A stretch of DNA of 22,729 bases. It comes from a virus. The stretch is taken from the IMG/VR virus record IMGVR_UViG_3300021185_000052, positions 1 through 22,729 of that record; one strand, 5' to 3'. Each line of letters opens with the position of its first letter. Position 1 is the stretch's first letter. A program made the position numbers and the translations under genes. The notes under the pieces are model-generated. The model did no database searches. It saw only the letters and a list, made by a program, of their open reading frames with translations, and was not told where the DNA came from. Shown here in pieces: positions 1-17,923 of the stretch.

Positions 1-106
1 GACGCTTAAACACTGTAGAAATTTGCTCCTCAGCCCTTGCTAGGGAAATCATGGTCTCGCTGAGCCTGTCTATTTTAAGCTCTACTCGCGTCAGCCGGTC
101 TTCCAT
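1..106 (-). CDS. Small coiled-coil protein, 3' end cut by window edge
   Basis: An ATG at 106 directly follows the TAG stop (109-107) of the metallophosphoesterase gene, and the frame stays open to base 1, giving 35 visible residues that begin MEDRLTRVELKIDRLSET. Hydrophobic residues at heptad spacing (L5, V8, L10, I12, L15, M19, L22) predict an amphipathic or coiled-coil helix. Small phage proteins with such an N-terminal helix often carry a transmembrane segment later, but that part lies outside the window, so no function is assigned. Its start is tightly coupled to the upstream gene, and only a weak GGTGATAT-type ribosome-binding sequence is visible. Confidence 0.6.
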   Translation of the reverse strand, partial: MEDRLTRVELKIDRLSETMISLARAEEQISTVFKR

Positions 107-1291
107 CTATATCACCACATTCGCTTGATCGTACTCTCGAGGGATCTCGTAGGTACAAGTCATCAGCTTGCCTCCCTCTGCCTTGTAAACAATTAGGTCC
201 ATCGTGTGATTTGAACCATATCCCATACTTGAGTGCCAACGGTCCGGTGGGGGCAAACAACCGTGCTTAGACACTGTTACTCCCTCAAACTCCTGAATAC
301 TCTGGTGGTGGAAATGGCCCACCAAAAACTGTCTGTGGGTGGTCTCACCCCAATCCTTTGGCATATCTCTAGGCATGATCTGAGCAAGTTTAGCGGCCTT
401 TATCTTATCGCCGTGGTGTATGCCGAGCAGCCACTTATTCCACCTCACATAATGCACATATTGAGATGATTTTAGCACATTTACCCTGGGTTCCTTTGCG
501 AAGTAGGTTTCCAGAATAACCTGAACCACCAGGCTAGTATGATCGTCATGATTACCTCTAGCTACTACCAAAGTGACGTTGTCGCACTTAGTGAGCATCT
601 GCTCAACGCCGTTCATTAGAACCTGTGCGCATGCCCTGAGCTGATCCTCGTAAGAGCACGACATGTCTACTAGGGTGCCCTTCGTGGTAGTAGATGGGTT
701 CGCCCGGTCTGAATGTGCCAGATCTCCTAGCGAAATTAGCAGCCCATTTTTCGCTTCCGGTATCTGCTGTACAAGCGTCCAAATAGCCTCGTCGATCTCT
801 TGAGTGGCCTTACCGACATTGAAGTCTCTGTCACCTGTCTCCTTCTTGAACGCAAGCGCACCAACGTGTGCATCCCCGATTATCACCGACGGCATAAGAT
901 CGTCTTTGCGGACCTTCTTGCCTTTAGCCTTGCGTTTGACCGGGATAACTCCCTTGCAGAGCTGCTCCACGAAAGCATTAAAGGCTTCTGCCTTCTCAGC
1001 CTCTGCGGCAGTCCTCTTCGTTTTTAGCCAGGTCTTGTTCCCATCTGGGTCTGCCGAGTACACAGAGCGACCGATCACTGTCTCACCTGGTCCCACTAGG
1101 TGGGTGCTGTCCCAGTGTTCTGTGTAGCCACGCTGAGCCGCAAAGTTTTTAACCGCCCCAATGTGGTCGCGTAATGTAGACGGAGAAACACCCAAGACAC
1201 CCGCCGCTTTGGCAACCACTTCCCCGCAGTCTTCCCACGCTTTAATGGCCTGGCGTTGGCGCTCAGTCTTGGCGTAATCTATTAGACTCAT
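107..1291 (-). CDS. Metallophosphoesterase with N-terminal helix-turn-helix
   Basis: This 394-residue protein has two parts. Residues about 8-50 form a helix-turn-helix-like segment (AKAAGVLGVSPSTLRDHI), suggesting DNA contact. Residues about 132-390 form a calcineurin-like metallophosphoesterase domain with the metal-binding motifs in order: GDAHVG (139-144), GDLAH (189-193), GNHDD (246-250), HHGD (292-295) and GHFHH (325-329). A basic linker (KRKAKGKKVRK, near 119-129) separates them. In this superfamily the domain hydrolyses phosphoesters with two metal ions; here the substrate is unknown, and a DNA nuclease or nucleotide phosphatase are both possible. The ATG overlaps the preceding TGA as ATGA, and an AAGGTGG ribosome-binding sequence precedes it. 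Similar HTH-phosphoesterase genes are common in phage genomes. The domain call is firm and the role is not known. Confidence 0.9.
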   Translation of the reverse strand: MSLIDYAKTERQRQAIKAWEDCGEVVAKAAGVLGVSPSTLRDHIGAVKNFAAQRGYTEHWDSTHLVGPGETVIGRSVYSADPDGNKTWLKTKRTAAEAEKAEAFNAFVEQLCKGVIPVKRKAKGKKVRKDDLMPSVIIGDAHVGALAFKKETGDRDFNVGKATQEIDEAIWTLVQQIPEAKNGLLISLGDLAHSDRANPSTTTKGTLVDMSCSYEDQLRACAQVLMNGVEQMLTKCDNVTLVVARGNHDDHTSLVVQVILETYFAKEPRVNVLKSSQYVHYVRWNKWLLGIHHGDKIKAAKLAQIMPRDMPKDWGETTHRQFLVGHFHHQSIQEFEGVTVSKHGCLPPPDRWHSSMGYGSNHTMDLIVYKAEGGKLMTCTYEIPREYDQANVVI

Positions 1292-1563
1292 TGACCACCT
1301 TCTTTGTAATACTTCAGATCGGTTTGCAGGATCAAGACTTCTTTCTGCAATGCTATGACTTCGTTTTCTAGTTTTCTTATATCAGGAAAGATATAGTTGT
1401 TCTGATTGCCCTTGAGATTTCTAGTCTCCTGAGCATTAACGTCTATCCGCTCGCTAATACTGGCATAGCCCCAAGTAGCAAAAGCCACTATAGATATAAT
1501 CTGCAAAAGCCAGACTATACTGATCGTTATCTCTGATCTGTCGTTTAGTTTTGGAACCGCCAT
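1288..1563 (-). CDS. Small single-pass membrane protein with coiled coil
   Basis: This 91-residue protein has one strongly hydrophobic segment at about residues 14-34 (ISIVWLLQIISIVAFATWGY) and then a hydrophilic C-terminal half. Residues about 57-86 show leucine/isoleucine/valine heptads typical of a coiled coil. The charged N-terminus and single membrane span fit a small holin-like or spanin-like lysis protein, but no family is recognised and no lysis enzyme is visible in the window. The ATG at 1563 has only a weak ribosome-binding site. Its TGA overlaps the ATG of the metallophosphoesterase gene, so the two are probably translationally coupled. Confidence 0.7.
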   Translation of the reverse strand: MAVPKLNDRSEITISIVWLLQIISIVAFATWGYASISERIDVNAQETRNLKGNQNNYIFPDIRKLENEVIALQKEVLILQTDLKYYKEGGQ

Positions 1564-1576
1564 TATTCACAAGAGC

Positions 1577-1858
1577 CTAATAGCCTTTTATCAAAAGCTT
1601 CTTGTAGTCAGGATCTGACAGCTTGCGACGGATGTACTTGGCGTACTCTTGAGTGCCGATAGATGCACCGCACTCGCGTGACCATTGCTCAGCAATGACT
1701 AGGGGAATAGATCCTACCCAACGAGCCTTGGCATCGCCGTGCATCGAAGGGACGTGATCTCTTAAATCATGAATCTCTTTTAGGATTCCGCTTACGTCTT
1801 GGCTTCGGACTACCTGTATCTTGCTGTCCTCCGCTGTTATCTTCTCGTTTATTGACAT
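1577..1858 (-). CDS. Conserved small phage protein next to head genes
   Basis: This 93-residue protein starts MSINEKITAEDSK and contains RSQDVSGILKEIHDLRD (19-35), followed by a segment with VIAEQWSRECG and a C-terminus of the type YIRRKLSDPDYKKLLIKGY. From memory, small proteins with 'RSQDV...' and '...KRKLNDPEYRYL...' signatures are common near the capsid genes of podoviruses, but their function is unknown to me. The ATG at 1858 has a good ribosome-binding site (TGAGGT, about 10 bases upstream). The start lies 92 bases inside the preceding gene, in a different frame. A later Met at residue 38 would avoid the overlap but would delete the recognisable RSQDV motif, so the upstream start is preferred. 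Confidence 0.75.
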   Translation of the reverse strand: MSINEKITAEDSKIQVVRSQDVSGILKEIHDLRDHVPSMHGDAKARWVGSIPLVIAEQWSRECGASIGTQEYAKYIRRKLSDPDYKKLLIKGY

Positions 1859-1994
1859 CTTCTACTACCTCAAAGAATCCTGTTTCTAATACCTTCTTAA
1901 CCATCTCAGGAGTGACTTCAACAATATCACCCACTTGGTAGCGAGCACCTTCTATCCACGGTTGACGTGAGCTAGTGCAGATAATTTTTGTCAT
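1767..1994 (-). CDS. Small protein of unknown function (75 aa)
   Basis: The gene is read from the ATG at 1994 (MTKIICTSSRQPWIEGARYQ), which lies 4 bases past the stop of the 53-residue gene and has a weak GAAG ribosome-binding sequence. A longer frame exists but runs back through the poly-lysine codons of the previous gene and is judged artefactual. Residues 1-46 look folded, with YQVGDIVEVTPEMVKKVLETGFFEVVE, a short beta-strand and helix pattern seen in small head-associated proteins. Residues 47-75 are low-complexity and charged, ending in PKPRRKRNPKRDS. That tail is encoded in the same DNA as the first 30 residues of the next gene. The function is unknown. Confidence 0.65.
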   Translation of the reverse strand: MTKIICTSSRQPWIEGARYQVGDIVEVTPEMVKKVLETGFFEVVEDVNKREDNSGGQQDTGSPKPRRKRNPKRDS

Positions 1995-1998
1995 ATGG

Positions 1999-2160
1999 TT
2001 ACTTCTTTTTTTTAGCTGTTTTAGACGCCGCCTTAAAAGCTGCTGCTGTAGGAGCACCAGGAGAGCCTGGGGAGCGCATACGCTCTACTCTGCCGCCTGC
2101 TGCCTTTTGTTTCTTAATTCGTGCGTTCTTCTTGTGGATGTTTTCGTACAGACCGGGCAT
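1999..2160 (-). CDS. Tiny conserved basic phage protein (53 aa)
   Basis: An ATG at 2160 and a TAA at 2001-1999 delimit a 53-residue protein beginning MPGLYENIHKKNARIKKQ and ending in KTAKKKK. The middle, VERMRSPGSPGAPTAAAFK, resembles a small protein I recall from many phages (GLY-NIH-K... then MR-PG--GAPT---F---A-TAKK). The match is from memory, and no function is known. AAGGA lies 6 bases upstream of the ATG and overlaps the TAA of the preceding gene. The protein is very basic, so nucleic-acid contact or packaging with the genome is possible but unproven. The gene fills what would otherwise be a 170-base gap. Confidence 0.8.
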   Translation of the reverse strand: MPGLYENIHKKNARIKKQKAAGGRVERMRSPGSPGAPTAAAFKAASKTAKKKK

Positions 2161-2169
2161 AACAGATCC

Positions 2170-2427
2170 TTATTTCTTTGTAGACTTAGCGCCACTACAC
2201 TTCCAACGCTTTCGGCTTAGGTTGTTAGGCGTGTTCGGGTCGTTCTGCTTTGCTTTTGATAAGCGTTTCTTGATCCCGAGAGATCTAGCGCAGTATGAGT
2301 TACCCTTGCTTGTGCCTGGACGTACTCTAGCCCCACCATCGCTAGCCTTACCGGCCTGCCCATAGCTAACCTTCTTGCCCGACGCCGTGACCTTTACTTT
2401 GGCCTTACCCTTTCTTGGTGTTGCCAT
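2170..2427 (-). CDS. Small basic protein with Cys motif (85 aa)
   Basis: This 85-residue Lys/Arg-rich protein starts MATPRKGKAKVKVTASGKK. Its second half is distinctive: SYCARSLGIKKRLSKAK (44-60), then NDPNTPNNLSRKRWKCSG. The pattern 'N-PNNLSRKRWKC' is familiar from small phage and cyanophage proteins, but I cannot give a function. Two cysteines (46 and about 77) could pair or bind a metal. The high positive charge fits a DNA-binding or virion-internal protein. The ATG follows GAGGT by 4 bases, and that sequence lies just past the U-tract of the terminator after the capsid gene, so expression needs terminator readthrough or a new promoter. Confidence 0.75.
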   Translation of the reverse strand: MATPRKGKAKVKVTASGKKVSYGQAGKASDGGARVRPGTSKGNSYCARSLGIKKRLSKAKQNDPNTPNNLSRKRWKCSGAKSTKK

Positions 2428-2440
2428 GCTTACCTCATAG

Positions 2441-2473
2441 AAAAGGCCGAGACCCCCGAAGAGATCCCGGCCT
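2441..2473 (-). terminator. Rho-independent terminator with cUUCGg tetraloop after capsid gene
   Basis: On the minus strand the 30 bases from 2473 to 2444 fold into a hairpin in which every position pairs outside the loop: 13 pairs, ten Watson-Crick and three G-U, closing an exact C(UUCG)G tetraloop. The stem base AGGCCG/CGGCCT is followed at once by UUUUCUAU. It begins 8 bases after the TAA of the major capsid gene (2483-2481). A GC-rich stem, extra-stable tetraloop and U-run are the standard intrinsic terminator signs. It should end or attenuate transcripts after the capsid gene and may also protect the 3' end of capsid mRNA. Confidence 0.9.
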
Positions 2474-2480
2474 ATCCGAC

Positions 2481-3443
2481 TTAGCTCACGTCAGCGATAA
2501 CGCCGTGTGCTGCTTCGTTGTCTACCTGGAGACCGAACTCTACAGAGATCAAGCGACGCTCGGCATGGCCGGTACGCGCTAGAGGCTTCTGTGAAGTAGG
2601 CTTGAGGTATGCTACTCGTGCGTAGTTAGGGTCGAGGACCAGAACGTCGCGTGAGCGGCTGAAGCGTGAAGGAACAATCTGTAGCTCACCGAAGTCTGAA
2701 ATGTAGACGTCGATTGCAGCGTTCAGCTTGCTGTCTTCTGCTTCTTTGTAGCGTGTAGCGTTACCTGTGAAGGCAGAGATAGTCTGCTTCTGTGAAGGGC
2801 CACAGATTACGACTGAAGGCTCAGCGCCTTGTGTCCAACAATCAGCAATAACGCCCTTAAGAAGAGCCTCAGTAATTGCTCGCTGTGTGCCGTCAGTTGC
2901 CGCTGCATTAACGTAACCTGAAACACCAGAGCCTGAAGTAGTACCATCAGCACCATTAGTTCCACGGCTTGCGTTAGTGCGCAGGTATGCAGGCAGACCC
3001 GCAGATGAACGAGCTGTGCCAGACGCACCGGCAGAACCTGCTACGTTGTCACAGAGCATAGACTCCATGTCACGCTTAAGCTCTTTCAGCTTGTAAGCGA
3101 TCTGCTTGGCAGTAGTCTGTGCATCGCCTGCGCCGTTTACAGCGTTGGCAGTGTCAGACACTTCTACGACCTTGTCAGAGATCTGCGTGTAGTTGCCCTG
3201 ACGGACAGCGTTAGTTGGTGCATCGTTACCTGGAGCAGACTCGCCCTCGATTACACGGTTTGAAGTGCTAGCTGCTGCTAGAGACACTACACCCCACTCG
3301 AAGTAAGTGTTGTCCACGTTGCGACGGCCAATAGCAGACATCACTGGTGTGTCAGTTGGAGAGATGGAGATCATCGCGTCTTGCAGATCTTCCTTGATGG
3401 TTGAGACGTCATACGTCTCGTTAGTGTTAGCTGTTACGCCCAT
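2481..3443 (-). CDS. Major capsid protein (SU10/phiEco32-like)
   Basis: This 320-residue protein would form the icosahedral or prolate shell and should have the HK97 fold. The N-terminus (MGVTANTNETYDVSTIKEDL) and the next segment, ISPTDTPVMSAIGRR, are typical of the SU10-type major capsid family. Further marks are an E-loop-like Gly/Ala/Ser-rich stretch near 130-190, KRDMESMLCDN (helical spine region), and a C-terminal part with DVLVLDPNYARVAYLKP and GLQVDNEAAHGVI. Its length is close to the family norm. An AGGTG ribosome-binding sequence lies 7 bases before the ATG. It follows the scaffold gene directly and is followed by a strong terminator, consistent with it being the most abundant product of the late operon. 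Confidence 0.92.
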   Translation of the reverse strand: MGVTANTNETYDVSTIKEDLQDAMISISPTDTPVMSAIGRRNVDNTYFEWGVVSLAAASTSNRVIEGESAPGNDAPTNAVRQGNYTQISDKVVEVSDTANAVNGAGDAQTTAKQIAYKLKELKRDMESMLCDNVAGSAGASGTARSSAGLPAYLRTNASRGTNGADGTTSGSGVSGYVNAAATDGTQRAITEALLKGVIADCWTQGAEPSVVICGPSQKQTISAFTGNATRYKEAEDSKLNAAIDVYISDFGELQIVPSRFSRSRDVLVLDPNYARVAYLKPTSQKPLARTGHAERRLISVEFGLQVDNEAAHGVIADVS

Positions 3444-3462
3444 AATAGTTCACCTAAAGTAG

Positions 3463-4434
3463 TTAGCTTAATAAGAATTTGGCTACATCATCGATGCTGC
3501 CGGTCTTGTTCATCCGAGCTTGAGCGTTCTGCCTCTGCTTGGCTGCGCCTGTTCTACCGGTTTTCTTAGTGCCTGGCTTGACCATTGGTCGTGCGTTACT
3601 GGCTTTCTGCGTGGCCTTAGACTTACCCTCAACGAGTTGGTCGTACTTCATAGCCTTTTGCAGTACCAGGATCGCTCGGTGGTCCATAACCTCAGATAGC
3701 TCTGACTCGGAATAACCGAGCTTGCTACCGAACTGTACTAAGTCTTCCTTAAGCTTGGATGCCGTTTTGGCGTCTCCAAACTCTGGTATTACTTTCGCTA
3801 GCTGCTGCATCTCACCTTGGAGATAATGTTGCTGTGCAATTTGCATCTGTTGTTGCTGAGACTCTGTAACTTGCTGAATCTGATACTGCTGATTCTGATA
3901 GTTTTGCATTGCCTCGTCATAAGATAGTTTCGCGTCCATGTAGCCTATAGGGTCGTTGTTAAACAGTTCCCTAGATGGTGGCACAGGGGCGCTAGCTAGC
4001 TGTCCAGTTTGCGCTTGCTGCAACAAGTGTGACAGTTGCTGTCGCTCATTTAAGAGAGCTTGGTATACACCTTCCGCTTCTTTCTTAGCTTCGGATGCTT
4101 CCTTCATTCCCTTTTGGATATAAGCTTGGCCACTGAAGGATTGCTTTAGGTCGTCTAGGGTTACTTCACGTTCCTCGCCATCTACTTTGACGGTGTAAAG
4201 TTCCTGCTGACCGGCGTCTTCAGCCTCTTCTGCTTCATCCTCATCTTGGTCATCCGACTCATCGTCAGTCGTATCATCAAGATCCTCTCCGTCCTCAGAC
4301 TCATCTGCATCGTTAGACTCCGCTTCGGGTTGGTCTAGCAGATCTTCCTCGGTTGGATTTTCTTCACCTTCGTTGCCCATAATTAGGCTGTCTGCGACGG
4401 AGTCTATGCTGCCGTCCATATCAGTCGTATCCAC
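3463..4434 (-). CDS. Capsid scaffolding protein
   Basis: This 323-residue protein lies between the portal and capsid genes, the usual scaffold position. Residues about 15-75 are extremely acidic (runs such as DDTTDDESDDQDEDEAEEAE). Residues 79-100 hold a compact YTVKVDGEEREVTLDDLKQ element common in podovirus scaffolds. Residues about 110-215 are Gln-rich and probably a long coiled coil. The C-terminus (about 270-310) is basic, fitting a capsid-binding tail, and ends GSIDDVAKFLLS. Such proteins direct shell assembly and then leave or are degraded. The chosen start is GTG at 4434, with AAAGGA upstream; an ATG five codons later is the alternative. Confidence 0.9.
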   Translation of the reverse strand: MDTTDMDGSIDSVADSLIMGNEGEENPTEEDLLDQPEAESNDADESEDGEDLDDTTDDESDDQDEDEAEEAEDAGQQELYTVKVDGEEREVTLDDLKQSFSGQAYIQKGMKEASEAKKEAEGVYQALLNERQQLSHLLQQAQTGQLASAPVPPSRELFNNDPIGYMDAKLSYDEAMQNYQNQQYQIQQVTESQQQQMQIAQQHYLQGEMQQLAKVIPEFGDAKTASKLKEDLVQFGSKLGYSESELSEVMDHRAILVLQKAMKYDQLVEGKSKATQKASNARPMVKPGTKKTGRTGAAKQRQNAQARMNKTGSIDDVAKFLLS

Positions 4435-4451
4435 GGTCCTGATTCCTTTTG

Positions 4452-4682
4452 TTACTTACGTTTCTCGAAGATCTTCTCGTCCGTTATAGCGGATTGGAGT
4501 CGTCCCTCGATCTTGCTTAATGCACTCACTATGGAGTGCGCTTCTTCCCTGATCTCTGAATCCGTCGACCCAGAGTTCAAGAAGATTTTGACCTGCTCAT
4601 CCCTCAGTTCGTCCATGACGGTCCTGAAGTTCTCATCTGCCAGTAAAGCCCTGGCTCGAGCAGCTCGCTGTTTGATATCCAA
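4452..4682 (-). CDS. Small helical protein between portal and scaffold (76 aa)
   Basis: This 76-residue protein is predicted to be almost wholly helical, with MDIKQRAARARALLADENF, a central DELRDEQVKIFLNS and a C-terminal amphipathic helix. The start is TTG at 4682, immediately after the portal TAA, with AGAGGTG 7 bases upstream inside the end of the portal gene, so translation is probably coupled. Short helical proteins at this place are common in podovirus head operons, but the function is not known to me; a helper in portal or scaffold assembly is a guess from position. Confidence 0.75.
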   Translation of the reverse strand: MDIKQRAARARALLADENFRTVMDELRDEQVKIFLNSGSTDSEIREEAHSIVSALSKIEGRLQSAITDEKIFEKRK

Positions 4683-6743
4683 TTATACACCTCTTGGAGC
4701 GCGTTGGAGCGCCCTGAGCTTCTCTGTTTCAACACTGGTCTCATACTTGCCATAGATCTCAGCAGTCTTAAGCATGAGGTCTTGGTCCATCTTATCACGC
4801 TCTAGGTCATCTTTAGCAGCAGCCTTAGCCATCTCCATCTGCATCTTAGCGGCATCGGTCTGAGCGTTAGCTTGAACCTTCATCTGCTCGGCCTGTAGAT
4901 AAGCCTGATTAGGATCAATTTGCTGCTGTGCTGTTGCTGCCTGAGCCTCTGACGCCATCTGCTGTAGAGCTGCCTCAGTCTGCGGGTCCATAGGAGCAAA
5001 GTAGCGGTCAGTGTTACGAACACCAGACATAGCAAGGATGTCGCCCAGAGAGTTACGGATCTGCGTCATGGTCACTAGACCGTTCTGAGGACCGTAAGTC
5101 TGATACATCTGGATCTGCATCTGTAGAGCCTGATTAAGCGCAGTGATCTTAGTCTCGTCCTTGCCGGTGCCCAGACCGACGTTGATAGAGAGATCCATTG
5201 CCGAGTTCCACACCCGAGGATCTATAGGGATAAACTTGCCATTGAGGCGCATCATCTCTTCGTCGGTTGTGTTCTTAATCATGAGGTCTAGCATGAGCTT
5301 AAACATCTGACGCATACCGCCCTCTGCGAAGTTCCTAGCAATAACCTCTACCTGCCCGGCACCTGCCTGCATAGTAGTCGCTACTGCCGTCGCCGTGGCG
5401 TTCTGGAGAGCGTCTGGGTCTAGGCCTAGTGATGCCCTAGATACGCCTGTCTTCTGCTCTGTCTGCTCGTCCATGTACTGCATAGCGGGTAGTGTGCTGC
5501 CTGCAATAAAGGGCACAGAGAGGTCTTGTATAGCGCCCATCTGCTTAACCCGGACAATGGCACCAATCTCGTTATTGAGCACGTCGTCCATATTGGTCAG
5601 GTCTTCTACTACCTGCTGTCGTGGCTGATTGGTCAGGGCCACGTTGTCTAGCATGCCACGGAGCATTGACGTAGATGCGTCCTGGTCGTTCATGATCAGG
5701 TCAGCAATAGACCGGCCATAGAATGCGTGAGGCTCTGGGTCGCACTCGAACACAGCGAATGGCACGTTGTCGCAAGGCATAAGGTCTAGCAGCTTGTAGC
5801 CGTTACCGCCCATTGTAAACTTGTGCAGCAGAGGTACGCCTGTGCCGTCCACATCAACGCGCATGTAGGCCTCAGTGATAAGCACCACTTTCATTGATGG
5901 GTCGTTATAGTCTTCCTCTGCACGGTCGCGTGAGTAGCCTCGACGTGCGAAGTCTTCCTCATCTACCAGGCTGTCAGTCTCTGATATCCCTGACAGCTCT
6001 GAGATCTCGTCAAAGTCAAAGCCCATAGCAACAACATCTGCCACACGCATCTCTGTGCGGTGAGCCACCACATAGGCGTCTTCAATACTGCGAGCGTTAC
6101 GGTCCACAAAGAATTCTTCAGGAGGTACAGACTCTACGCAGAGCTTGCCATCGTCGTGGGTCTTGATGATCTTGATGTCGTGCTTGCGGGTCTGAACCTG
6201 CATGCCCATCTGATCCATCTCAACCTCAATAACCTCTGAGTGCTCGATGACCTCGATGTCGTCCTCGTTAACAATGAGAGCGAACTCTTCGTCGTTAAGA
6301 TTGGTAAACGTGTAGGTCTTGCCTGTTTGGTACTCTTCCCAGTAGATCTTGGCTATGCCGTTCTTTTTGACTAGGGCATCGTGGAACACGTCAGAGAGAA
6401 CCTTGTAACCGTTGATCTCGCCAAACTTCCAGTGCATGTAAGACGTAGCTTGCTCTGCGCCTTGGGTGTCCTCTGGTCCACGAGGCACAAACTCGACCGG
6501 GCGCTCAGTAGACAGGAATATACGCATAAGGCTAGGCTTGATGCCACGGATAGCGTCACGGACCTTAGTAGCGACTACTCGTGAGCGGCCATCCTCAAAG
6601 CCCAGGTCTGTCTCGCCATCGAAGTAGCGTTGAGCCTTAATGCGATCTGGTGCTATCTCGCTCTCAACAAAGTCCACCGCATCAGTTATGGCGCTAGCTA
6701 CAATGCTTTCAATTTCGTCGTCTGTGAGTTGCTTTGGCTTCAT
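4683..6743 (-). CDS. Portal protein (SU10/P22-like)
   Basis: This 686-residue protein should form the dodecameric channel at one capsid vertex for DNA packaging and release, and the docking site of terminase and neck. The N-terminus carries RIKAQRYFDGETDLG and SRVVATKVRDAIRGIKPSL, followed by FLSTERPVEFVP and VFHDALVKKNGIAKIYW, all typical of portals of the phiEco32/SU10 and P22 groups. The middle has a wing-type region (PCDNVPFAVFECDPEPHAFYG, then the NDQDASTSMLRGMLDNVAL helix). The last 90 residues are Gln/Ala/Met-rich and helical, as expected for a barrel extension. Length matches podovirus portals of about 700 residues. The ATG overlaps the upstream TGA as ATGA. Confidence 0.93.
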   Translation of the reverse strand: MKPKQLTDDEIESIVASAITDAVDFVESEIAPDRIKAQRYFDGETDLGFEDGRSRVVATKVRDAIRGIKPSLMRIFLSTERPVEFVPRGPEDTQGAEQATSYMHWKFGEINGYKVLSDVFHDALVKKNGIAKIYWEEYQTGKTYTFTNLNDEEFALIVNEDDIEVIEHSEVIEVEMDQMGMQVQTRKHDIKIIKTHDDGKLCVESVPPEEFFVDRNARSIEDAYVVAHRTEMRVADVVAMGFDFDEISELSGISETDSLVDEEDFARRGYSRDRAEEDYNDPSMKVVLITEAYMRVDVDGTGVPLLHKFTMGGNGYKLLDLMPCDNVPFAVFECDPEPHAFYGRSIADLIMNDQDASTSMLRGMLDNVALTNQPRQQVVEDLTNMDDVLNNEIGAIVRVKQMGAIQDLSVPFIAGSTLPAMQYMDEQTEQKTGVSRASLGLDPDALQNATATAVATTMQAGAGQVEVIARNFAEGGMRQMFKLMLDLMIKNTTDEEMMRLNGKFIPIDPRVWNSAMDLSINVGLGTGKDETKITALNQALQMQIQMYQTYGPQNGLVTMTQIRNSLGDILAMSGVRNTDRYFAPMDPQTEAALQQMASEAQAATAQQQIDPNQAYLQAEQMKVQANAQTDAAKMQMEMAKAAAKDDLERDKMDQDLMLKTAEIYGKYETSVETEKLRALQRAPRGV

Positions 6744-8785
6744 TGATTACCGCCTGTGAGTAAACCAGGTATTACCTGCTCATTTATTGCCGGGGCTTGC
6801 TTGACTGTTGCTGTTGTTGCAGCCGTCATCATTGTGTCACCTATTCTCTGCAATAGCTTTACTAGAGAGTCGGCCGCTGTTTCATCTACCAAGGCTCTCT
6901 TAACCAAATCTGGATTAGTCTCTACCAGATACCTAGCAACCTGAGTAGACTGAGCATCACTTAAACCTCTTGGCTTTAAGGCTCTGCTAGCTAGTTGAGT
7001 CGCCGCAGAAATAATAGCTCCTGGGCTTCCAGTTATGGCATCTATTACCGTTGCAGCTCCAACGCCTCCAGAACCCTGCCTTGATGCCTCTGCTTGAGTT
7101 ATTTGAGTCTGAGAACCACCAAGGATTGTGCTTGATGCTTGTTGGCTTGAAGCTGCAATGTCTGCCTTTCGGAGTAGCTCGTCTAAAGAATCCTCTGGAT
7201 AGACTAAGCGAATGTTTTTACCTAAACGTGAAGTAGGATCAGTGATGTCAGCCATCACGCTTTTTCTGCTTCCTGTTTCCATTCTGTTTTTGATTCCAGA
7301 CAGCACACCCATTCTATAAGCATCTAGCTGTTCTGGGGTAGCGCTCCTGTATGCCGTAAATTGAGAATCCACTAGATCGCTTGCTTTACCTAAAGAATCA
7401 ACACCCTTTTTGAATGCCTCAGCCGAAGATTGAATGTTTGACCACTTTGCTCTCACCTGCGCTAAATCAGGGAAATTATTATCCAAAACATTTCTAAATG
7501 CAGTAGCTGAGGCATCAAATCTTGTGCCTGCTGTAGAAGCTCCTCTCTCAAAAGCATAGTCAGTAACCTCATCTAAGGCTCTTCTAGTGTATTCTGCGTC
7601 CTCGAGAGTAGGCATTCTCTTTAGCTTCACGACGCCATTTTCAAAAGTAAAGAAAGGGTCTTTATTTCTTCCTGCTTCGTAAATTTCAATCAGCGTTCTA
7701 CGCACTGAAGGCATACTTTCTACGATGTCTTGAATATCGTTTAAGAAGAAAGGTCCTATATCTCCGTAATTACTCCATACTGTAGAGTATTCTTCGGACG
7801 CTAATTTCTCTATTTCATCTTTAGTATTATTAAAGTATTGAGGGATATTGGTTCCTTTTAAATTAGGAGCCAGATTCTCTACCATGAAATCATAGGCCTG
7901 CGTTCTTGTAGCCTCCGGTCTTGCTTGTAGACCCTCACGCATAACAGTCCCAGAAGGCCCTACGTTGTAGGCTCTAGCGGCATTAACAATATTTTTATTT
8001 TCCGCTGCAATACGGCCGCTAGCGATGTCAGCAACAAACTCATCTATTTGCTCTGGGCTTAGATTATCCACAGTCTGACCTGGGAATGCCTGAGCTACTA
8101 GTCTTCTAAATTCATTAACAGCAGCCGTGTCGCCTCTTCCCGCTAGTCTGTTTCTAACAAATTCAGAGAACCTTCCTGCAGGCTTTTGTATTGCTGTTCC
8201 CCCGGCAGAAAGAGCGCCGCCAAGACCAAATCCAGTAACACCGCTCGTTAAAGCGGGATTAATTCTTTCAATTGGGCTTCCCTCGGCAGAGCCAAAGCCA
8301 GACAAAGCCCCTTGAAAACCTCCGTAACCCGCTTGGGCCAGAACATTTCCTTTTACAGTTCCTTGCCTCCCAGGTCCAGTAAATAACAATTTACCAAACC
8401 TAGCTAAGTAAGGCGCATTTACAGGCGCAGCAGAACCTCCACTCATAATTGTAGAGGCAATTACCGGTAATGCTCCCCCGCCCATCTCATACAACAAAGC
8501 CTCGCCTGGACGAGCTTCCTGATATTGTTGAAGCTTGGTTCTAACTTCGTTAACCGACTCGCTATAAGGCTTTCCAGTAAAAGCTGTCATTAGGGCAGCT
8601 TCAGCCTCGTCTGCTGTGTTAAAGGTCAATCCTTGAGCTATAGATCTAATTCGCTGAGTATCTGGCTCAGGTTGCTTTAAAGCATTGCCTAGCTCAACAA
8701 GTGCGCTTTCTAGATCTGGGCTTATTGAGCCGCCGCCAAATGCTTGCTCTAGGGCCTTCTTTTGCGCTTCAGTAAGTCCATCCAT
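6740..8785 (-). CDS. Probable internal virion / DNA ejection protein (681 aa)
   Basis: This large protein has no enzymatic motif that I can see. Residues about 85-105 (KPYSESVNEVRTKLQQYQEA) precede a long Gly/Ala-rich hydrophobic region at about 100-200 (MGGGALPVIASTIMSGGSA and similar), and another small-residue hydrophobic patch lies near 590-615. The rest is mostly predicted helix. In podoviruses, proteins of this build upstream of the portal gene are ejected with DNA and can associate with host membranes; this role is inferred from position and composition. The DNA is much more AT-rich than the flanking portal gene. The start overlaps the preceding stop as TAATG, and the stop overlaps the portal start as ATGA. 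Confidence 0.65.
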   Translation of the reverse strand: MDGLTEAQKKALEQAFGGGSISPDLESALVELGNALKQPEPDTQRIRSIAQGLTFNTADEAEAALMTAFTGKPYSESVNEVRTKLQQYQEARPGEALLYEMGGGALPVIASTIMSGGSAAPVNAPYLARFGKLLFTGPGRQGTVKGNVLAQAGYGGFQGALSGFGSAEGSPIERINPALTSGVTGFGLGGALSAGGTAIQKPAGRFSEFVRNRLAGRGDTAAVNEFRRLVAQAFPGQTVDNLSPEQIDEFVADIASGRIAAENKNIVNAARAYNVGPSGTVMREGLQARPEATRTQAYDFMVENLAPNLKGTNIPQYFNNTKDEIEKLASEEYSTVWSNYGDIGPFFLNDIQDIVESMPSVRRTLIEIYEAGRNKDPFFTFENGVVKLKRMPTLEDAEYTRRALDEVTDYAFERGASTAGTRFDASATAFRNVLDNNFPDLAQVRAKWSNIQSSAEAFKKGVDSLGKASDLVDSQFTAYRSATPEQLDAYRMGVLSGIKNRMETGSRKSVMADITDPTSRLGKNIRLVYPEDSLDELLRKADIAASSQQASSTILGGSQTQITQAEASRQGSGGVGAATVIDAITGSPGAIISAATQLASRALKPRGLSDAQSTQVARYLVETNPDLVKRALVDETAADSLVKLLQRIGDTMMTAATTATVKQAPAINEQVIPGLLTGGNQ

Positions 8786-9993
8786 TACTTAAATGCCTCA
8801 TGAAGTTGAATTAAAGTAGGCCATCTTTCAACAAATTCTTCATATGTCATATTGTATTGACTTAATATTGAATCTAATTCTGAATTATTAGCAGGCACAG
8901 GAGGAACAACCCTAGGCTCTTTGGGGACATTGGTCATGTCTATTTCAGGAGAAGGAACAGAGATTCCGACCCTGACGTTATCAAAGTTGAGGCCGTAATT
9001 ATCTGCAACGGATCTAGTCTGATTAATTATCTCATTGGCTTGCTCAGAAGCAACGGCATATCTTGATTGCGCTAGCTGAGCAATAGTGTTTCTAGTTTCC
9101 TGCGTCATCAAGCCTTCGCCAGTAATGGCGTTAAGCATTTGTGCTTTAAGAGCAGGAGCAAGAGCTGTGGACCTGTTAAGAGCATCAACCTCCTCTCCTC
9201 GAACAACAGAGCCTGGGTCAAGTATCTTTAAGAAGGCGATAGTAAGAGCGTAGTCAGAGATGCCGCTTGGACGCTCATAAAACTCTTTTACTGTGTTAAA
9301 TCCTTCTCTGACATCAAAGAATCCAAAACGGTCGAGATCTTGGTTTAGTCTGTTTCTTGTCCTATCTTCCATGTCGGCCTTGCCTTCAAAAGACAGTCTT
9401 GACTCAGATCCCTCGGCTATATATCTCTGGTATTCATCTGATCCAGGTTCATAACCCAAAGCCGAAGCCTCAGATTGTCTTACTCTGATAGCCTCTGGAT
9501 CTTTGCTTCGATCTTTATCAGCCTTATACATAGCAATAACGTCAGTCGCTTTGAGCGTTGGGTTATCTATAAGTAGCTGAGCGTATGCTGCGCCACCTGG
9601 CTGAGTCTTGAGCCATTCGGCTGTCTGATTGGCTTGCTTGCTCAGCATATCTATAGCTTGGCGTTGCTCAATATTCTTAGCCGCCTGCTGCATAAGGACC
9701 TGATTAGGATTGAGTGACATACCGCCTAGCCCGATCACTAGCTTGTCACGGAAGTTAGGGTCCTGAACACGGCTCCTGATCCCACCACCAATAGCGCCGA
9801 GGATGCCCATAGCGCGGCTACCTAGAGTCTGAGGCGGCTGTGGAGGCTGTGGAGGCGCAGGCTGATTAGCCATCTGATTAAGTCTGCCTAGATTATCTGC
9901 CTGATTGAGCGCCGACATGTCTGGCATAGGGGTCTGACCCATTGCTCCGGGTAGATTCGGCTGAAGCCTGTATTCATCTAATAAACCGGCCAT
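8785..9993 (-). CDS. Probable internal virion protein (402 aa)
   Basis: The first 100 residues are Pro/Gln/Met-rich and disordered-looking (APPQPPQPPQ near 47-56), then Gly-rich (ILGAIGGGIRSRV). After residue about 100 it is mainly helical. Residues about 245-270 include SDYALTIAFLKILDPGSVVR, followed by GEEVDAL, a signature I recall from many podovirus structural or ejection proteins, where a conserved 'F-KILDP-SVVR-GE' element follows a helical domain. The gene is translationally coupled to the 681-residue protein downstream (one-base overlap) and follows a short Met-rich protein. Base composition shifts from GC-richer at the 5' end to AT-rich at the 3' end. The exact role is unproven. Confidence 0.7.
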   Translation of the reverse strand: MAGLLDEYRLQPNLPGAMGQTPMPDMSALNQADNLGRLNQMANQPAPPQPPQPPQTLGSRAMGILGAIGGGIRSRVQDPNFRDKLVIGLGGMSLNPNQVLMQQAAKNIEQRQAIDMLSKQANQTAEWLKTQPGGAAYAQLLIDNPTLKATDVIAMYKADKDRSKDPEAIRVRQSEASALGYEPGSDEYQRYIAEGSESRLSFEGKADMEDRTRNRLNQDLDRFGFFDVREGFNTVKEFYERPSGISDYALTIAFLKILDPGSVVRGEEVDALNRSTALAPALKAQMLNAITGEGLMTQETRNTIAQLAQSRYAVASEQANEIINQTRSVADNYGLNFDNVRVGISVPSPEIDMTNVPKEPRVVPPVPANNSELDSILSQYNMTYEEFVERWPTLIQLHEAFK

Positions 9994-10003
9994 AATTCTC
10001 TCT

Positions 10004-10315
10004 CTACTTGAATAGGTCTAGCAGACCCTTTGCCTGCTTCTTGGCTTTCTTGCCGATTGTGCTTGGCGCTTCCATGATGCGAGCAGGCATAGACATTACG
10101 TTCTGCCCGGCAAACTTCATGCGGTCGCCCATGTCATCAGGGTTGAGACCAGACATCACCATCTGCTGCCGTCGCATCTCCTCGTCAGCCTCTGAGCGCA
10201 TTGGCATATTCACCATAGACTGCATGGGCTGATAAGGAGCCATTTGAGGAGGCAGGTACTGGCCCTGTGGCTGCATCTGCATCTGCTGAGCTGTGACGTA
10301 GTCTGGATAGTTCAT
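10004..10315 (-). CDS. Small Met/Gln-rich protein (103 aa)
   Basis: This 103-residue protein has a Met/Gln/Pro-rich N-terminal half (QQMQMQPQGQYLPPQ, then QSMVNMPMRSE), a short helical centre (EEMRRQQMVMSGLNPDDMG) and a basic C-terminus (KKAKKQAKGLLDLFK). The methionine content is strikingly high, with 17 of 103 residues by my count. GGAG lies 5 bases before the ATG. It sits within the group of presumed internal virion proteins and may be one of them, but I recognise no family. The basic amphipathic C-terminal tail could bind DNA or membrane. Confidence 0.65.
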   Translation of the reverse strand: MNYPDYVTAQQMQMQPQGQYLPPQMAPYQPMQSMVNMPMRSEADEEMRRQQMVMSGLNPDDMGDRMKFAGQNVMSMPARIMEAPSTIGKKAKKQAKGLLDLFK

Positions 10316-10327
10316 GATTTCTCCGAT

Positions 10328-12205
10328 TTACATTACCGACGCGCCGAGCTGCAAGTAGTCGAACAGTCCTGGCTGCTTGCTAGTGGTCTGCGTCTGAGCG
10401 TTAGTCTGAGAGCCACCGAACGCGCCTAGCTGAGTCTGTAGAGCTTGCAGAGGTGCGCCTGTGTATCCTGCGTATTGCGCTCTGCCTGCATCAATTAGAG
10501 CTTGATTAGCTGCCTGCTGCGCTAGTCCTGCCTGAGAGATGCCCTGCTGTACGTCCTGAACCATGCCGAACCCGAGGTTGCCGATGTTGGCTAGCTGACC
10601 TGCCGCCTGTAAACGCTGCCCGCCTGCCTGTAATCCTGCCGCTTGGTTAGCTGTCTGCGCTTGCATCATTGCCTGCTGATTAGCTAGAGCTGCTTGGTTG
10701 CTAGCACCTGCACCGAACTGAGCCGCTTGGTTCTGAGCTGCTGCGTTCTGCAATGCCGCCACGTTCTGCGCCTGAGCACCGAACTGACCCGCCTGATTCA
10801 TTGCTGCTGCGTTCTGAAGGGCCGCTTGAGTTCCTAGCTGTGCATTCTGTAGACCGGAAACATTCTGCGCCTGAGCGCCAAATTGAGCTGCTTGGTTCAT
10901 CGCCGCTTGATTAGCAAGGTTAGCCTGAGTTCCGAGCTGAGCGTTCTGCATAGCCGCCTGAGTGCCTAGCTGCGCGTTTTGTAGGCCTGCCACGTTCTGC
11001 GCTTGAGCACCAAATTGAGCAGCCTGATTTCCTGCCGCTTGATTAGCCATTTGAGCTTGCTGACCCAAGTTCGCAGTTGTTGTAGCTGCCTGTAGGCCTG
11101 TGGCTTGATTAGCAAGGCCCGCCTGCATGCGTGTAGCGATGTCTTGCTGCGCTGCCTGCTGAGCCTGTGTGAAGCCTGCCTGACGCAATCCTGACGCTGT
11201 GCGAGCTGCCTGCTCTGCAAAGGCTCGATTAGTCTCAGCTTCTGCAATACCCTGGCGTGAACCACCAAACGCATTTGCTGCTTGAGCCTGAGCACCGCCT
11301 AGATTCTGCTGCATCAATCGCTGACGCTCGAGGTCAGATAGAGACTGCTGTACGACTTGGTTCTCGTAAGGATTAAAGTAGGGGTCTAGGCTAGTGCCTG
11401 CTAATTGCCCTGCTTGCACTCGCTCTGAGGTTACAGGGCCGACACCTGCAATACGCTCTGCGCCATAGCCCTGTGCGGTAGCTCTCTCTGCTGCTGCTCG
11501 CTCTGCTGCTGCTTGCTGAGCTGTGTACCCTTGAGCTGTCGCTTGCTGTGCTGCTGCCTGTTGCGCCGTGTAGCCTTGAGCTGCTGCGTTCTGAGCATTG
11601 TAGCCCTGAGACCCTACTTGAGATGCTTGGACGTTTATGGGAGTAATGCCCATTCCCGCAGCGGTCCCTGTAGCAGCCTGACCCACAGTATTGACTATTG
11701 TTTGAGCTGCATTGCCGTCAACAATCGGGTTGCGAGTAGTAGCGCCACCAAACGTGTTGAATTGCTGCGGTGTGTTGGCCTGAGCCATCTGAGGCTGAGC
11801 AGCCTGCAATGCTCTCTGGTCTAAGTTAGCACCCAAACCTCCTGATTGAGCAAACTGCTGAGGAGTCATACCAGACTGTCGAGCTGCCATTTGAGCAGGG
11901 TCAGAGCCAAGAGGAGCGCGATTCATTTGCATTTGATCAGAAACGCTCATTGGTGATGCTGTTGGCTGTATGCCAGATGTCCCAGTTAGCCCCATTGACT
12001 GTTGTGGTAAATGCCCACTTTTTATCAAGGATTCTCTTAGTCCTTCAAGTCCTGAGTAACCTCCAGCCACCGAACTTTGTGGAACACCAGGAGCCTGCAT
12101 AGGAGGCATAACTGCAGGCTGCACACCCGGCATGCCAGGGCCTTGTATATTTTGGCCTGCTTTTTTGATCGCTGACACTGCTGCGCCGTTAGCTGAACCT
12201 GCCAT
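10328..12205 (-). CDS. Ala/Gln-rich repeat protein, putative internal virion protein (625 aa)
   Basis: The start is the ATG at 12205 (MAGSANGAAVSAIKKAGQN), 7 bases after AGGAG; the frame continues upstream to 12268 without ribosome-binding support and overlaps the previous gene. The protein is dominated by Ala, Gln, Gly and Asn. One array has units such as QGYTAQQAAAQ (DNA 11480-11600). A second has repeated QFGAQAQNV and NAQLGTQA blocks (DNA 10690-11035). Between them lies a conserved-looking helical stretch with YFNPYENQVVQQSLSDLERQ, then ANAFGGSRQGIAEAETNRAF, which is the least repetitive part and familiar from marine phage structural proteins. A long flexible or helical virion component, perhaps involved in ejection, is inferred; it is not an enzyme. 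Confidence 0.7.
   Translation of the reverse strand: MAGSANGAAVSAIKKAGQNIQGPGMPGVQPAVMPPMQAPGVPQSSVAGGYSGLEGLRESLIKSGHLPQQSMGLTGTSGIQPTASPMSVSDQMQMNRAPLGSDPAQMAARQSGMTPQQFAQSGGLGANLDQRALQAAQPQMAQANTPQQFNTFGGATTRNPIVDGNAAQTIVNTVGQAATGTAAGMGITPINVQASQVGSQGYNAQNAAAQGYTAQQAAAQQATAQGYTAQQAAAERAAAERATAQGYGAERIAGVGPVTSERVQAGQLAGTSLDPYFNPYENQVVQQSLSDLERQRLMQQNLGGAQAQAANAFGGSRQGIAEAETNRAFAEQAARTASGLRQAGFTQAQQAAQQDIATRMQAGLANQATGLQAATTTANLGQQAQMANQAAGNQAAQFGAQAQNVAGLQNAQLGTQAAMQNAQLGTQANLANQAAMNQAAQFGAQAQNVSGLQNAQLGTQAALQNAAAMNQAGQFGAQAQNVAALQNAAAQNQAAQFGAGASNQAALANQQAMMQAQTANQAAGLQAGGQRLQAAGQLANIGNLGFGMVQDVQQGISQAGLAQQAANQALIDAGRAQYAGYTGAPLQALQTQLGAFGGSQTNAQTQTTSKQPGLFDYLQLGASVM
10690..11035 (-). repeat. 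Coding repeat array: QFGAQAQNV / NAQLGTQA units
   Basis: Within the Ala/Gln-rich protein, three copies of QFGAQAQNV and a diverged fourth (QFGAGASNQ) alternate with copies of NAQLGTQA. At DNA level, related blocks recur near 10705, 10765, 10860 and 10990, each reading on the plus strand roughly as an 'acgttctgcgcctgagcacc' type sequence. Spacing is irregular, which points to repeated duplication and deletion rather than a fixed-period tandem array. Confidence 0.8.
11480..11605 (-). repeat. Coding repeat array: GYTAQQAAAQ units
   Basis: A short tandem array in the same gene encodes QGYNAQNAAA, QGYTAQQAAAQ, QGYTAQQAAAE and QGYGAE, with Ala/Glu/Arg spacers (ERAAAERATA). Plus-strand DNA here shows repeating 'gctgctgc' and 'ttgagctg' blocks. 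The pattern fits replication-slippage expansion. Confidence 0.75.
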
Positions 12206-12215
12206 AGTGGTACTC

Positions 12216-12704
12216 CTAGTTGATTCGTCGGCCGTTAGCGAAGTCGCCACCACCGTAGCCGCCACCATAGCCGCCTGACTCGTCGATCATTCCGTCAAAT
12301 CCGGGAATGCGAGTTACATCAGTGCCAGTGCCGTAAGGATTCACAAACTGCCTGTTGATTAGAGCAGCCTGCCCTGGTCGTCTTGCTGCAAGCTCTGCTA
12401 CTGCCTGCTCGTAGAGAGGTGCAGATGAGTAGCCACGGACACCGCCATCAAAGGTCTGCGCTTCAGGCATACCGGCCATTGCGTCCATCTGAGGCATGAG
12501 TCCAAACGCAGAGCCAAAGTCAGCAGCCGACTGCATCGCAGCAGCTTGCATAGGAGTGAACGCTGCAACGTCAGGACCGTAGTAGGGAGTGTAGCCGATC
12601 TGGCTGATTTCTTTGCCCTGGGCGATGTTGGCCCTAGATGCGTCCTCGATGTACTTGGGTATCTCTACCTGTGTAGTTTGGCTACCGCCTTTTCCACCTG
12701 ACAT
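12216..12704 (-). CDS. Small structural-type protein with Gly-rich C-terminus (162 aa)
   Basis: This 162-residue protein begins MSGGKGGSQTTQVEIPKYIE and continues with an IGYTPYYGPDVAAF segment, then TPMQAAAMQSAADFGSAFGL. This N-terminal signature is one I recall from many podovirus genomes, next to internal virion protein genes, where it is annotated only as a phage structural or hypothetical protein. The middle holds GGVRGYSSAPLYEQAV and AARRPGQAALINRQF. The C-terminus has a GGYGGGYGGG tract and ends FANGRRIN. AAGGA lies 8 bases before the ATG. No enzymatic motif is present; a minor virion component is inferred from position. Confidence 0.75.
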   Translation of the reverse strand: MSGGKGGSQTTQVEIPKYIEDASRANIAQGKEISQIGYTPYYGPDVAAFTPMQAAAMQSAADFGSAFGLMPQMDAMAGMPEAQTFDGGVRGYSSAPLYEQAVAELAARRPGQAALINRQFVNPYGTGTDVTRIPGFDGMIDESGGYGGGYGGGDFANGRRIN

Positions 12705-12705
12705 A

Positions 12706-13065
12706 TTAAATTTCCTTGCTCAGTGTTAGTAGTGTCGGCTCCCACCCAAACGGTGCTAGGGCCTTCTTCCATCCCATCCTGCCCGCTAGAGTAAGCGCCT
12801 GGCAGTCTTGTGCTTTTGCCCACCGTATGACGTCTTCGTGCATGTCGGTGATCTGGTCTAGCTCTCCTCCTGCGAGGAATATGTGCAATACCCGCTTTTT
12901 TGGATATACCGCTAGCTCCGTAACAATGCACCCGCGCTCGGCAGGCCATAGCTGCATATTTCCTGACAGTATACCATCAAATACGTCCTGTAGGTCGTGA
13001 GTGCCGCCGCCATAGGCTAGCGCGTCTTCAATCCACTTAGAGCACCTAACAAATTCGTCTACGAT
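12706..13065 (-). CDS. GNAT-like protein with apparent ATC start (119 aa)
   Basis: The reading frame gives IVDEFVRCSKWIEDALAYGG from an ATC at 13065 and ends WEPTLLTLSKEI. From memory, closely similar phage proteins begin MIVDEFVR and are annotated as N-acetyltransferase-like. They carry the RVLHIFLAGGELDQI strand-helix pattern, then a CQALTLAGRMGWKKALAPFGW segment near the acyl-CoA side of the fold, and all of these are here. No ATG, GTG or TTG occurs in frame between an upstream stop near 13185 and an internal ATG at 12957, which would remove 36 conserved-looking residues. GGAGG lies exactly 7 bases before the ATC. A rare start codon, or a G-to-C sequence error, is therefore likely. The substrate is unknown. 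Confidence 0.75.
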   Translation of the reverse strand: MVDEFVRCSKWIEDALAYGGGTHDLQDVFDGILSGNMQLWPAERGCIVTELAVYPKKRVLHIFLAGGELDQITDMHEDVIRWAKAQDCQALTLAGRMGWKKALAPFGWEPTLLTLSKEI

Positions 13066-13730
13066 GACACAACCTCCAATACAGATAGTGTTACCGATGG
13101 TGACGCAGGAGAGAATGCTGTAGCAGCCGAGCCGTGCAGATCTGCGTCTAGACCGTCTGTAGCAAACATAGCCTGCAAGTAATCACCCGCAGTCACAGAG
13201 AATATTGCTGACCGGCAGGTAGTCTTGCGCTGATCGTTATTGTGCAGAGTATCCACAATAGTAGTATTAGGTGCGTTAGTACCGTTGATGCGTGGCCAGA
13301 AATAGAACGTCTTGGTGTTAGCTGACTCTGAGTGCATCTCAGCAGTAAACGTAATATGAAACACGCCAGACTTCGTAAAGTTAATCTTCGATGCGTCAGT
13401 GCCGTCAACAGAGATGCCGTTTGCAGACACCGTAGTGTTCCAGGTTATCTCTGTGGCGGTGTTTATAGTTGCGGCAGCATGGATCGTCGTATCAACAATA
13501 TAGGCGTAATGCACCTGCCCGCCACCTAGAGCAAGAGGCCACCACGCTAGGTCCTTAGACACAACCGGGTACTTGCCGTCACGCTCCCACATAAGCAAGC
13601 CGTCCTCTGTGGCTCGCTCATCATCACCCTTATGACCTAATAGGTTTCGGGTTCTTCTCAGGTGTTGCAGTAGGCGATTAGCCCACGTCTGCCAAGCGCC
13701 ACCAGAGGGCTGTGGGAGCTGTTCACTCAA
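13059..13730 (-). CDS. Fibre protein with C1q/TNF-like C-terminal domain (223 aa)
   Basis: The start is placed at the TTG at 13730, whose last two bases form part of the TGA of the nozzle gene; GGGAGG lies 6 bases upstream. A TTG at 13778 would extend it but has no such site. Residues 1-75 include SEQLPQPSGGAWQTWANRLL and a short helical region suited to virion attachment or trimerisation. Residues about 80-223 form a beta-rich domain whose strands (GVFHITFTAEMHSE, TKTFYFWPRING, TAGDYLQAMFATDG, SPSVTLSVLEV) fit the C1q/TNF-like jelly roll frequent in phage head or tail fibres. Receptor or surface-glycan binding is inferred. The last 7 bases overlap the next gene. Confidence 0.7.
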   Translation of the reverse strand: MSEQLPQPSGGAWQTWANRLLQHLRRTRNLLGHKGDDERATEDGLLMWERDGKYPVVSKDLAWWPLALGGGQVHYAYIVDTTIHAAATINTATEITWNTTVSANGISVDGTDASKINFTKSGVFHITFTAEMHSESANTKTFYFWPRINGTNAPNTTIVDTLHNNDQRKTTCRSAIFSVTAGDYLQAMFATDGLDADLHGSAATAFSPASPSVTLSVLEVVSS

Positions 13731-15208: not shown

Positions 15209-15218
15209 GGTGTGCTCC

Positions 15219-15671
15219 TTAAGGTGCTACCGGCCAATCAGCATTTTGCAGGTTTGGAAAGTTTGCGTGTGAACTGATATCTCTAAGCGCCTGACGATAA
15301 GCTGCCATCTCAGCAGACATAGTCACGTCGCTTAACGCATGCCAATCAGTCGCGGCAAGCTTATCATCCCGAACAGCTCTTACTCCGCTTGCCTTCTGAG
15401 CCAATACAGCAGCAATCTCTTCGTCTGTCAAAGAGGTTACCGTATTTTCATACGTCCAAACGCCATCGACTAAAGACGCCGTTTCATTTGTTATTACCTT
15501 TTGAGTAGCGGGTTCGTGAGGCAAAGCATCTGCAAAAACCGCAGGATATACGCCATACTCTGCTAGTAACTCATCTGGGATAGATCGTGGAAACGATACA
15601 TTTGGATTATCTTTTCTGAGCTGTCCAATTGTATAGTTTTGAGCAACGCCATTGTCTACTTTAACAAACAT
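15219..15671 (-). CDS. Tail fibre assembly chaperone-like protein (150 aa)
   Basis: The C-terminal 55 residues carry the signature of the phage tail assembly chaperone family (Phage_tail_APC type): VRDDKLAATDWHALSDVTM, then AAYRQALRDISSHANFP and NADWPVAP, i.e. R-x-x-R-D-x-L-L/A-x-T-D-W ... Y-R-x-x-L-R-D-I ... F-P ... W-P. The N-terminal part (residues 1-95) is beta-rich and probably domain-specific to its partner. Such proteins help fold or attach a neighbouring fibre, and some become part of it. It lies directly after the 504-residue receptor-binding candidate, its likely client, and shares that gene's AT-rich composition. AGGA lies 8 bases before the ATG. Confidence 0.85.
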   Translation of the reverse strand: MFVKVDNGVAQNYTIGQLRKDNPNVSFPRSIPDELLAEYGVYPAVFADALPHEPATQKVITNETASLVDGVWTYENTVTSLTDEEIAAVLAQKASGVRAVRDDKLAATDWHALSDVTMSAEMAAYRQALRDISSHANFPNLQNADWPVAP

Positions 15672-17921: not shown

Positions 17922-17923
17922 CG

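Follow-up and report, generated by a model that had tools for sequence, protein, structure and literature searches.

The tail genes of phage T7 come after the terminator T-phi in the same operon. T-phi is a stem-loop terminator right behind the capsid gene, in T7 as in T3, that works on the phage-encoded RNA polymerase, with low efficiency in T7 (PMC3276506). Among the LUZ24-like phages (Bruynoghevirus), phiIBB-PAA2 has an annotated Rho-independent terminator, a GC hairpin with a UUCG loop and a U-tract 7 bases past the capsid stop, and in UFV-P2 two late transcription modules were based on a terminator predicted at the end of the capsid gene (PMC3890496). The terminator predicted in SU10 lies between CDS10 and CDS11, close behind the capsid gene (CDS9), of which CDS10 is the frameshift partner (PMC4281155). 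For a pelagiphage of the HTVC010P type, PMC10504331 reports that no terminator was found; its passages and those of PMC9004378 have no bearing on the post-capsid site of the window. The capsid protein is the product that a phage needs most, and its excess over the products of neighbouring genes in phages with few promoters is usually guessed from a terminator call. Here such a call is backed by covariation among close relatives and set against 117 capsid lineages.

The element that we studied lies in a window of 22,729 bases (the whole stretch of viral DNA analysed), in which all proteins with family matches are encoded on the minus strand. The features around it are the following.

2481..3443, minus strand: major capsid protein gene, 320 aa, Pfam SU10_MCP PF17236, with its stop codon TAA at 2483-2481
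2444..2473, minus strand: putative terminator stem-loop with a 13-pair stem and the loop UUCG at 2457-2460, from fold and covariation
2441..2444, minus strand: U-tract UUUU, continuing C U A U G, the first U of which can pair with A2473, from the sequence
2432..2436, minus strand: GAGGT, ribosome-binding-like sequence of the next gene, from the sequence
2170..2427, minus strand: gene for a small basic protein of 85 aa, the first behind the hairpin
1999..2160, minus strand: 53-aa gene (MPGLYENIH...), phrog_16028, a family with no assigned function
1767..1994, minus strand: 75-aa gene (MTKIICTS...) that weakly matches the head-tail connector family phrog_748 (E = 0.00095)
1577..1858, minus strand: 93-aa frame, phrog_3982 (E = 5.7e-8)
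1288..1563, minus strand: gene for a 91-aa protein whose N-terminal stretch looks hydrophobic by eye, called a membrane protein in an earlier, sequence-only reading; no PHROG or Pfam match
107..1291, minus strand: 394-aa calcineurin-like phosphoesterase, phrog_704 DNA repair exonuclease

Judged by sequence comparison, the element is of an already known kind, the annotated or predicted post-capsid terminator of LUZ24-like phages. Like the window, phiIBB-PAA2 has a homologous capsid protein (34.5% identity), a hairpin, loop and U-tract at this position and a phrog_3982 gene behind them; the window shows this LUZ24-like arrangement with an SU10/DUF5309 capsid gene. In phiIBB-PAA2, phrog_3982 lies directly behind the terminator, whereas three small genes intervene in the window, and LUZ24-like phages differ further in that virion structural and tail genes come after the capsid gene. 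The 75-aa gene of the window was considered as a homologue of the gene after the phiIBB-PAA2 terminator and rejected, the shared gene being the 93-aa one. The SU10/phiEco32 late region has the SU10-type capsid family (a Pfam name) and a predicted terminator behind the capsid gene in common with the window and differs from it in its 77-kb genome and the frameshift extension of the capsid gene. The sequence-only reading had drawn a parallel to the late terminator of T7, which holds only for the position right after the capsid gene. T-phi is read by a phage-encoded single-subunit RNA polymerase. A search for a T7-like polymerase (PF00940), run without a positive control, found none in 7 records, which may be fragments, and likewise none in 14 controls. 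Unlike T7, the window has its recognised tail-fibre and ejection-type genes upstream and just the weak connector match downstream (7 of the 16 proteins searched to this end had no match). Rfam family RF03012 (Mu-gpT-DE) is likewise a structured RNA named for its place behind a phage capsid gene, gpT being the capsid gene of Mu and DE standing for downstream element. Its covariance model had no match in the window at gathering, and the Rfam scan of the window gave nothing at that cut-off.

In the order of transcription, genes for terminase, virion, tail-fibre and ejection-type proteins, and then for portal, scaffold and capsid, precede the hairpin. As the tail-fibre and ejection-type genes that could be recognised are upstream, the main virion block ends with the capsid gene. 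One of the small genes behind that block is weakly connector-like, and small virion genes may still follow the hairpin. Behind it come the 85-aa, 53-aa, 75-aa, phrog_3982, 91-aa and phosphoesterase/exonuclease genes. Ten proteins searched from further downstream in relative G002, where most reading frames run in the same direction, comprised an esterase, two endolysins, an endonuclease, NinG, a helicase and a primase, one member of a family of unknown function and two without a match. A sigma-70 pattern scan of positions 1-3600, which is blind to phage-specific promoters, gave 0 matches (2.9 expected by chance), so the genes behind the hairpin seem to need readthrough or an unrecognised promoter, much as had been suggested. 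Within the window we also observed that a 162-aa ejection-protein-like frame (12216-12704) overlaps a 646-aa frame (10328-12268) in a different frame; a split gene, a frameshift or a sequencing error is possible in this region (10328-12704). Repeats such as QNAQLGTQAA are abundant in the 646-aa protein.

On the minus strand, the capsid stop is followed by a 7-base spacer and then by the stem, which starts at the 8th base, as originally described, and pairs 2473-2461 with 2456-2444, closing C(UUCG)G. The stem had been called fully paired and the tetraloop perfect: all 13 pairs are indeed standard, 10 being Watson-Crick and three G-U, and 'perfect' is true only of the cUUCGg loop (UUCG at 2460-2457). 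After the stem comes UUUUCUAUG, the first U of which is the last base of the stem. The U-run is thus UUUU at 2444-2441, followed by C and U, in agreement with the UUUUCU tail that had been noted; its first U pairs with A2473, and the bases 3' of the stem read UUU C U AUG from 2443. The GAGGT at 2436-2432 begins 4 bases past the U-run and ahead of the ATG at 2427, placing the ribosome-binding-like site of the next gene just past the U-tract, as first reported. Read on the plus strand, the hairpin is followed by ATCCGACTT, with no T run, and what had been termed a strong terminator therefore resembles a one-directional intrinsic one. The observation of a hairpin with a U-tract is confirmed.

The fold proposed as a check gave the same picture: the 71 bases at 2420-2490 have a minimum free energy of −31.5 kcal/mol, against −20.2 (s.d. 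2.8) for shuffled versions (z = −4.0), with 0 of 200 shuffles folding as low, and the 13-pair hairpin alone, stable and GC-rich, reaches −21.9 kcal/mol. In a simple terminator scan, also suggested earlier, the post-capsid site came first of 26 matches in 1-20000 (15.4 expected), an excess too weak on its own, and stricter scores were therefore adopted. A first combined score ranked the site first in the window and in relatives G001 and G002, second in G007 and G010, ninth in G009 and outside the best nine in G003, G004, G005, G008 and G011. It placed many hairpins within reading frames high, and we relied instead on D, a classical score that combines a tail score with the hairpin energy per length (the tail recursion is also given in PMC12207403). 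Scored in this way on both strands of the window, the post-capsid site has D = +19.7, with a tail score of 3.66 for the U-rich UUUUCU, and is the only site with D > 0; in G001 and G002 it is the best intergenic site by D. No second copy of the hairpin was found in the window within 3 mismatches.

The nearest relatives form a set of eight junctions, the window included, with capsid proteins that are at least 93% identical. Variants that destroy the pairing, which the sequence-only reading had named as evidence against itself, are absent from this set: pairing is held in 104 of 104 cells of the alignment, with 0 broken pairs. Two-sided changes at 7 of the 13 pairs show selection on the pairing. 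Covariation was 0.624 compared with 0.323 in shuffles (0 of 500 as high) and far above every slid version; the pairing kept and the two-sided changes were each matched by 0 of 500 shuffles and the number of further pair types by 12 of 500. The loops are UUCG, UUAG or UAAC, and D is positive at all eight junctions (19.7 to 40.0). In L004 and L007, the 85-aa gene is missing at this place and the hairpin is retained, as read from the sequence. That the hairpin is a chance palindrome with no function is consequently hard to credit. The frequency of terminator-like pattern matches in the window (26 against the 15.4 expected) would fit such an origin, but the site alone has a positive D there, a hairpin recurs in 116 of 117 lineages, and the covariation among the eight junctions speaks against chance unless the alignment is wrong.

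We consider the element to be probably an intrinsic (Rho-independent) terminator, a leaky one, which would end most transcripts of the virion block just after the capsid gene. We infer that a polymerase, probably that of the host, pauses on the U-tract while the hairpin forms and stops here with partial efficiency; readthrough would then supply the small genes and phosphoesterase behind the hairpin at a reduced dose, giving a step in expression. The U-run, with just 4 U before a C, counts against termination, as does the 7-base gap to the stop; given both, the terminator should be leaky and the genes downstream reduced. In E. coli, terminator tR2 was almost fully repressed by translating ribosomes when placed a few bases behind a translated gene and required a gap of more than 27 nt for maximal efficiency (PMC4824070), and the gap in the window falls within the repressed range. 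The U-run ends 40 nt behind the capsid stop compared with a median of 48 nt behind the gene for mapped E. coli termination points (PMC12207403), a spacing that is short, not freakish. By analogy with tR2, a trailing ribosome could possibly hinder the window hairpin, given its closeness to the stop, and the terminator may be gated by ribosomes. Such closeness is general in the family, in which stop and stem core are a median of 11 bases apart and no more than 27 in 113 of 117 lineages.

To place the window in its wider family, we collected 389 capsid-bearing sequences from five scans of viral contigs, together with phage records, which gave 375 usable junctions, 193 of them unique, in 117 clusters. 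A hairpin with dG ≤ −12 occurs in the first 77 bases past the capsid stop in 116 of the 117 clusters, compared with 43 of 245 control gene ends (those of the other reading frames in these loci that have 150 codons or more; Fisher P = 8e-57, an indicative value, as the clusters are related). These values allow loops of up to 22 nt; a limit of 10 nt missed the large-loop hairpins of pelagiphages and gave 103 of 117. The only exception, L108, reaches −11.6 with seven T behind the hairpin and is therefore terminator-like too, and L107 passes the limit through a doubtful long-range fold. D is positive at 43 of the 117 capsid ends and at 0 of the 245 other gene ends. The stem-loop is thus more conserved than its U-tract, and the 74 lineages with D ≤ 0 count against the terminator reading. 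Among the 25 junctions closest to the window, with capsid identities of 79% or more, just 13 have a positive D, and in L011, L013 and L016 (85 to 91% identity), where the capsid stop overlaps the next start (TAATG), it is −7.9, −28.7 and −9.5. By eye, these three have a strong hairpin around 30 bases further down, which falls within the next reading frame and has no classical U-tract behind it (L011:3961-4055, L013:3961-4055, L016:2577-2671).

The hairpin's main job could instead be protection of the capsid mRNA at its 3' end, or setting how stable the mRNA segments of a co-transcribed operon are, with termination secondary or absent. We regard this as unlikely, although it would account for several observations: a hairpin stands at nearly every capsid end and a positive D at a minority; the hairpins with D ≤ 0 are not weaker (median dG −19.35 compared with −17.5); compensatory changes occur at 3 pairs in a set of four sequences without a U-tract, a weak signal (17 of 500 shuffles as high; L161 was omitted for its loop length); and genomes with a U-less capsid hairpin, such as G022, G023 and G024, have clearly positive terminator sites elsewhere. 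Against it, hairpin and U-tract are both retained in the window and in the seven relatives nearest to it, and T is enriched just past the stem across the 117 lineages (61, 54, 54 and 41% at positions 1-4), with at least 4 T in the 8 bases past the stem in 63 of 117 compared with 5 of 43 control hairpins. On a quick capsid tree, the U-tract label, a loose T count, changes around 29 times, at least 21 of the changes being forced by supported branches, compared with around 39 times for shuffled labels, so it is partly inherited; both label and count are approximate because the automatic choice of hairpin is not always the obvious one (for example, in L021, L059 and L107). In each of the ten scanned genomes whose capsid hairpin has no U-tract, one or more sites with D > 0 occur elsewhere outside reading frames, and the hosts thus seem not to do without U-tracts; we do not favour hosts that lack terminator U-tracts as the reason for the U-less hairpins. 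In G016, G017 and G019, three of the four GC-richest, these sites are few and weak (0.8 to 6.0), and for them the host explanation may hold. The loop is of the UNCG type in 29 of the 117 lineages and of the GNRA type in 20. Separately, G is nearly absent from the first 8 bases past the stem (0 to 8% per position compared with 24% further downstream), across all 117 post-capsid hairpins, with or without a U-tract.

In relatives of the HTVC106P type, the large loop of the post-capsid hairpin and the loop of a second hairpin, just ahead of the next gene, are complementary. We selected such elements for a GAA...GGAAC pattern and a next gene that begins ATGAGAAC, variants outside this pattern being missed, and obtained 56 unique elements (138 occurrences, some from one contig fetched twice). 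In 35 of the 56, the loops have 5 to 8 complementary bases; in 16, both hairpins have short loops with 2 to 4 complementary bases; and five that failed automatic parsing were placed by sequence, four as long-loop and one as short-loop, giving 39 and 17. The proposed structure has 21 pairs, including 4 between the loops, and across the 38 distinct long-loop sequences 98.1% of the cells are paired. Covariation is 0.383; shuffles give 0.236, with 0 of 500 as high, and no slid version exceeds 0.191. Of the five measures, one does not rise above the shuffles, the number of further pair types being 22 compared with 23.5. One loop-loop pair is C-G in 23 sequences and U-A in 15; the 38 sequences fall into few groups, so few independent events are counted. 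In these phages, the post-capsid hairpin thus appears to be half of a covarying two-hairpin kissing element, a candidate RNA. A model of the two hairpins matched 6 of 8 records at E ≤ 0.001, with one sense site each where the capsid position is known (in G025 and G026, directly behind the gene) and one overlapping opposite-strand match in G029; at this threshold it found none in HTVC106P, which has the short-loop form, or in G031, and at E ≤ 1 none in the window. Rfam gave nothing at gathering in the five HTVC106P-type loci scanned whole (L102, L210, L216, L238 and L240) or in four short stretches of L469, L434 and L460. The element of L469 was rejected as a member of RF03012, its 11.2 bits against a cut-off of 49 amounting to chance. 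A mixed-term literature search had no report of the kissing element among the matches listed, so prior publication is possible.

The kissing element lies between the capsid gene and the next gene (MRTLNDYF...), at L469:2160-2262, L434:2159-2261 and 37 more loci, with the short-loop form at L455:2160-2258. Loop 1 is UAACCUU or UAAUCUA and the complementary loop 2 AAGGUUA or UAGAUUA; an AA/GGAA internal loop is conserved in the second hairpin, whose end lies right ahead of the ribosome-binding site.

The presence of a hairpin directly before the next gene, with a loop that can pair with that of the first, would suit a role in translation, in which the structure prevents ribosomes at the end of the capsid gene from continuing into the next gene or re-initiating there. 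The tight packing of stop, hairpin and ribosome-binding-like site in the window would suit it too. For the window we nevertheless find this improbable: its UUCG loop is closed and has no free partner sequence, and the U-tract would be needless. The terminator reading is preferred there, and the family comparison hints at room for a second role of the stem-loop. More broadly, and with somewhat less than even confidence, we suggest that the post-capsid hairpin may be a family-wide RNA element of phages with SU10-type capsids, the core of which would be the stem-loop and not the terminator. U-tracts would have been gained and lost, and the element would tune capsid output relative to that of the genes that follow, some lineages using termination and others RNA stability or structure; in the HTVC106P type (SAR11), it would have become half of the two-hairpin kissing RNA, with short loops in both hairpins where the kissing is lacking. 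The comparison raises the question of what the hairpin is for when most lineages keep it and not the terminator score, and the kissing element is a compact candidate RNA on which this could be tested.

Rfam at gathering gave only a tRNA in 16 related loci. Past the capsid stop of L021, L022 and L028, we observed a short hairpin and then a second structured-looking stretch with the common letters GGGGCTGGCAGGCA...TTTGCCGCACAAGG; a tRNA was considered for this second structure and none was found. In Sinorhizobium phage phiM5 (L106:3521-3595), a tRNA-Met gene lies directly behind the post-capsid hairpin, ahead of the next gene.
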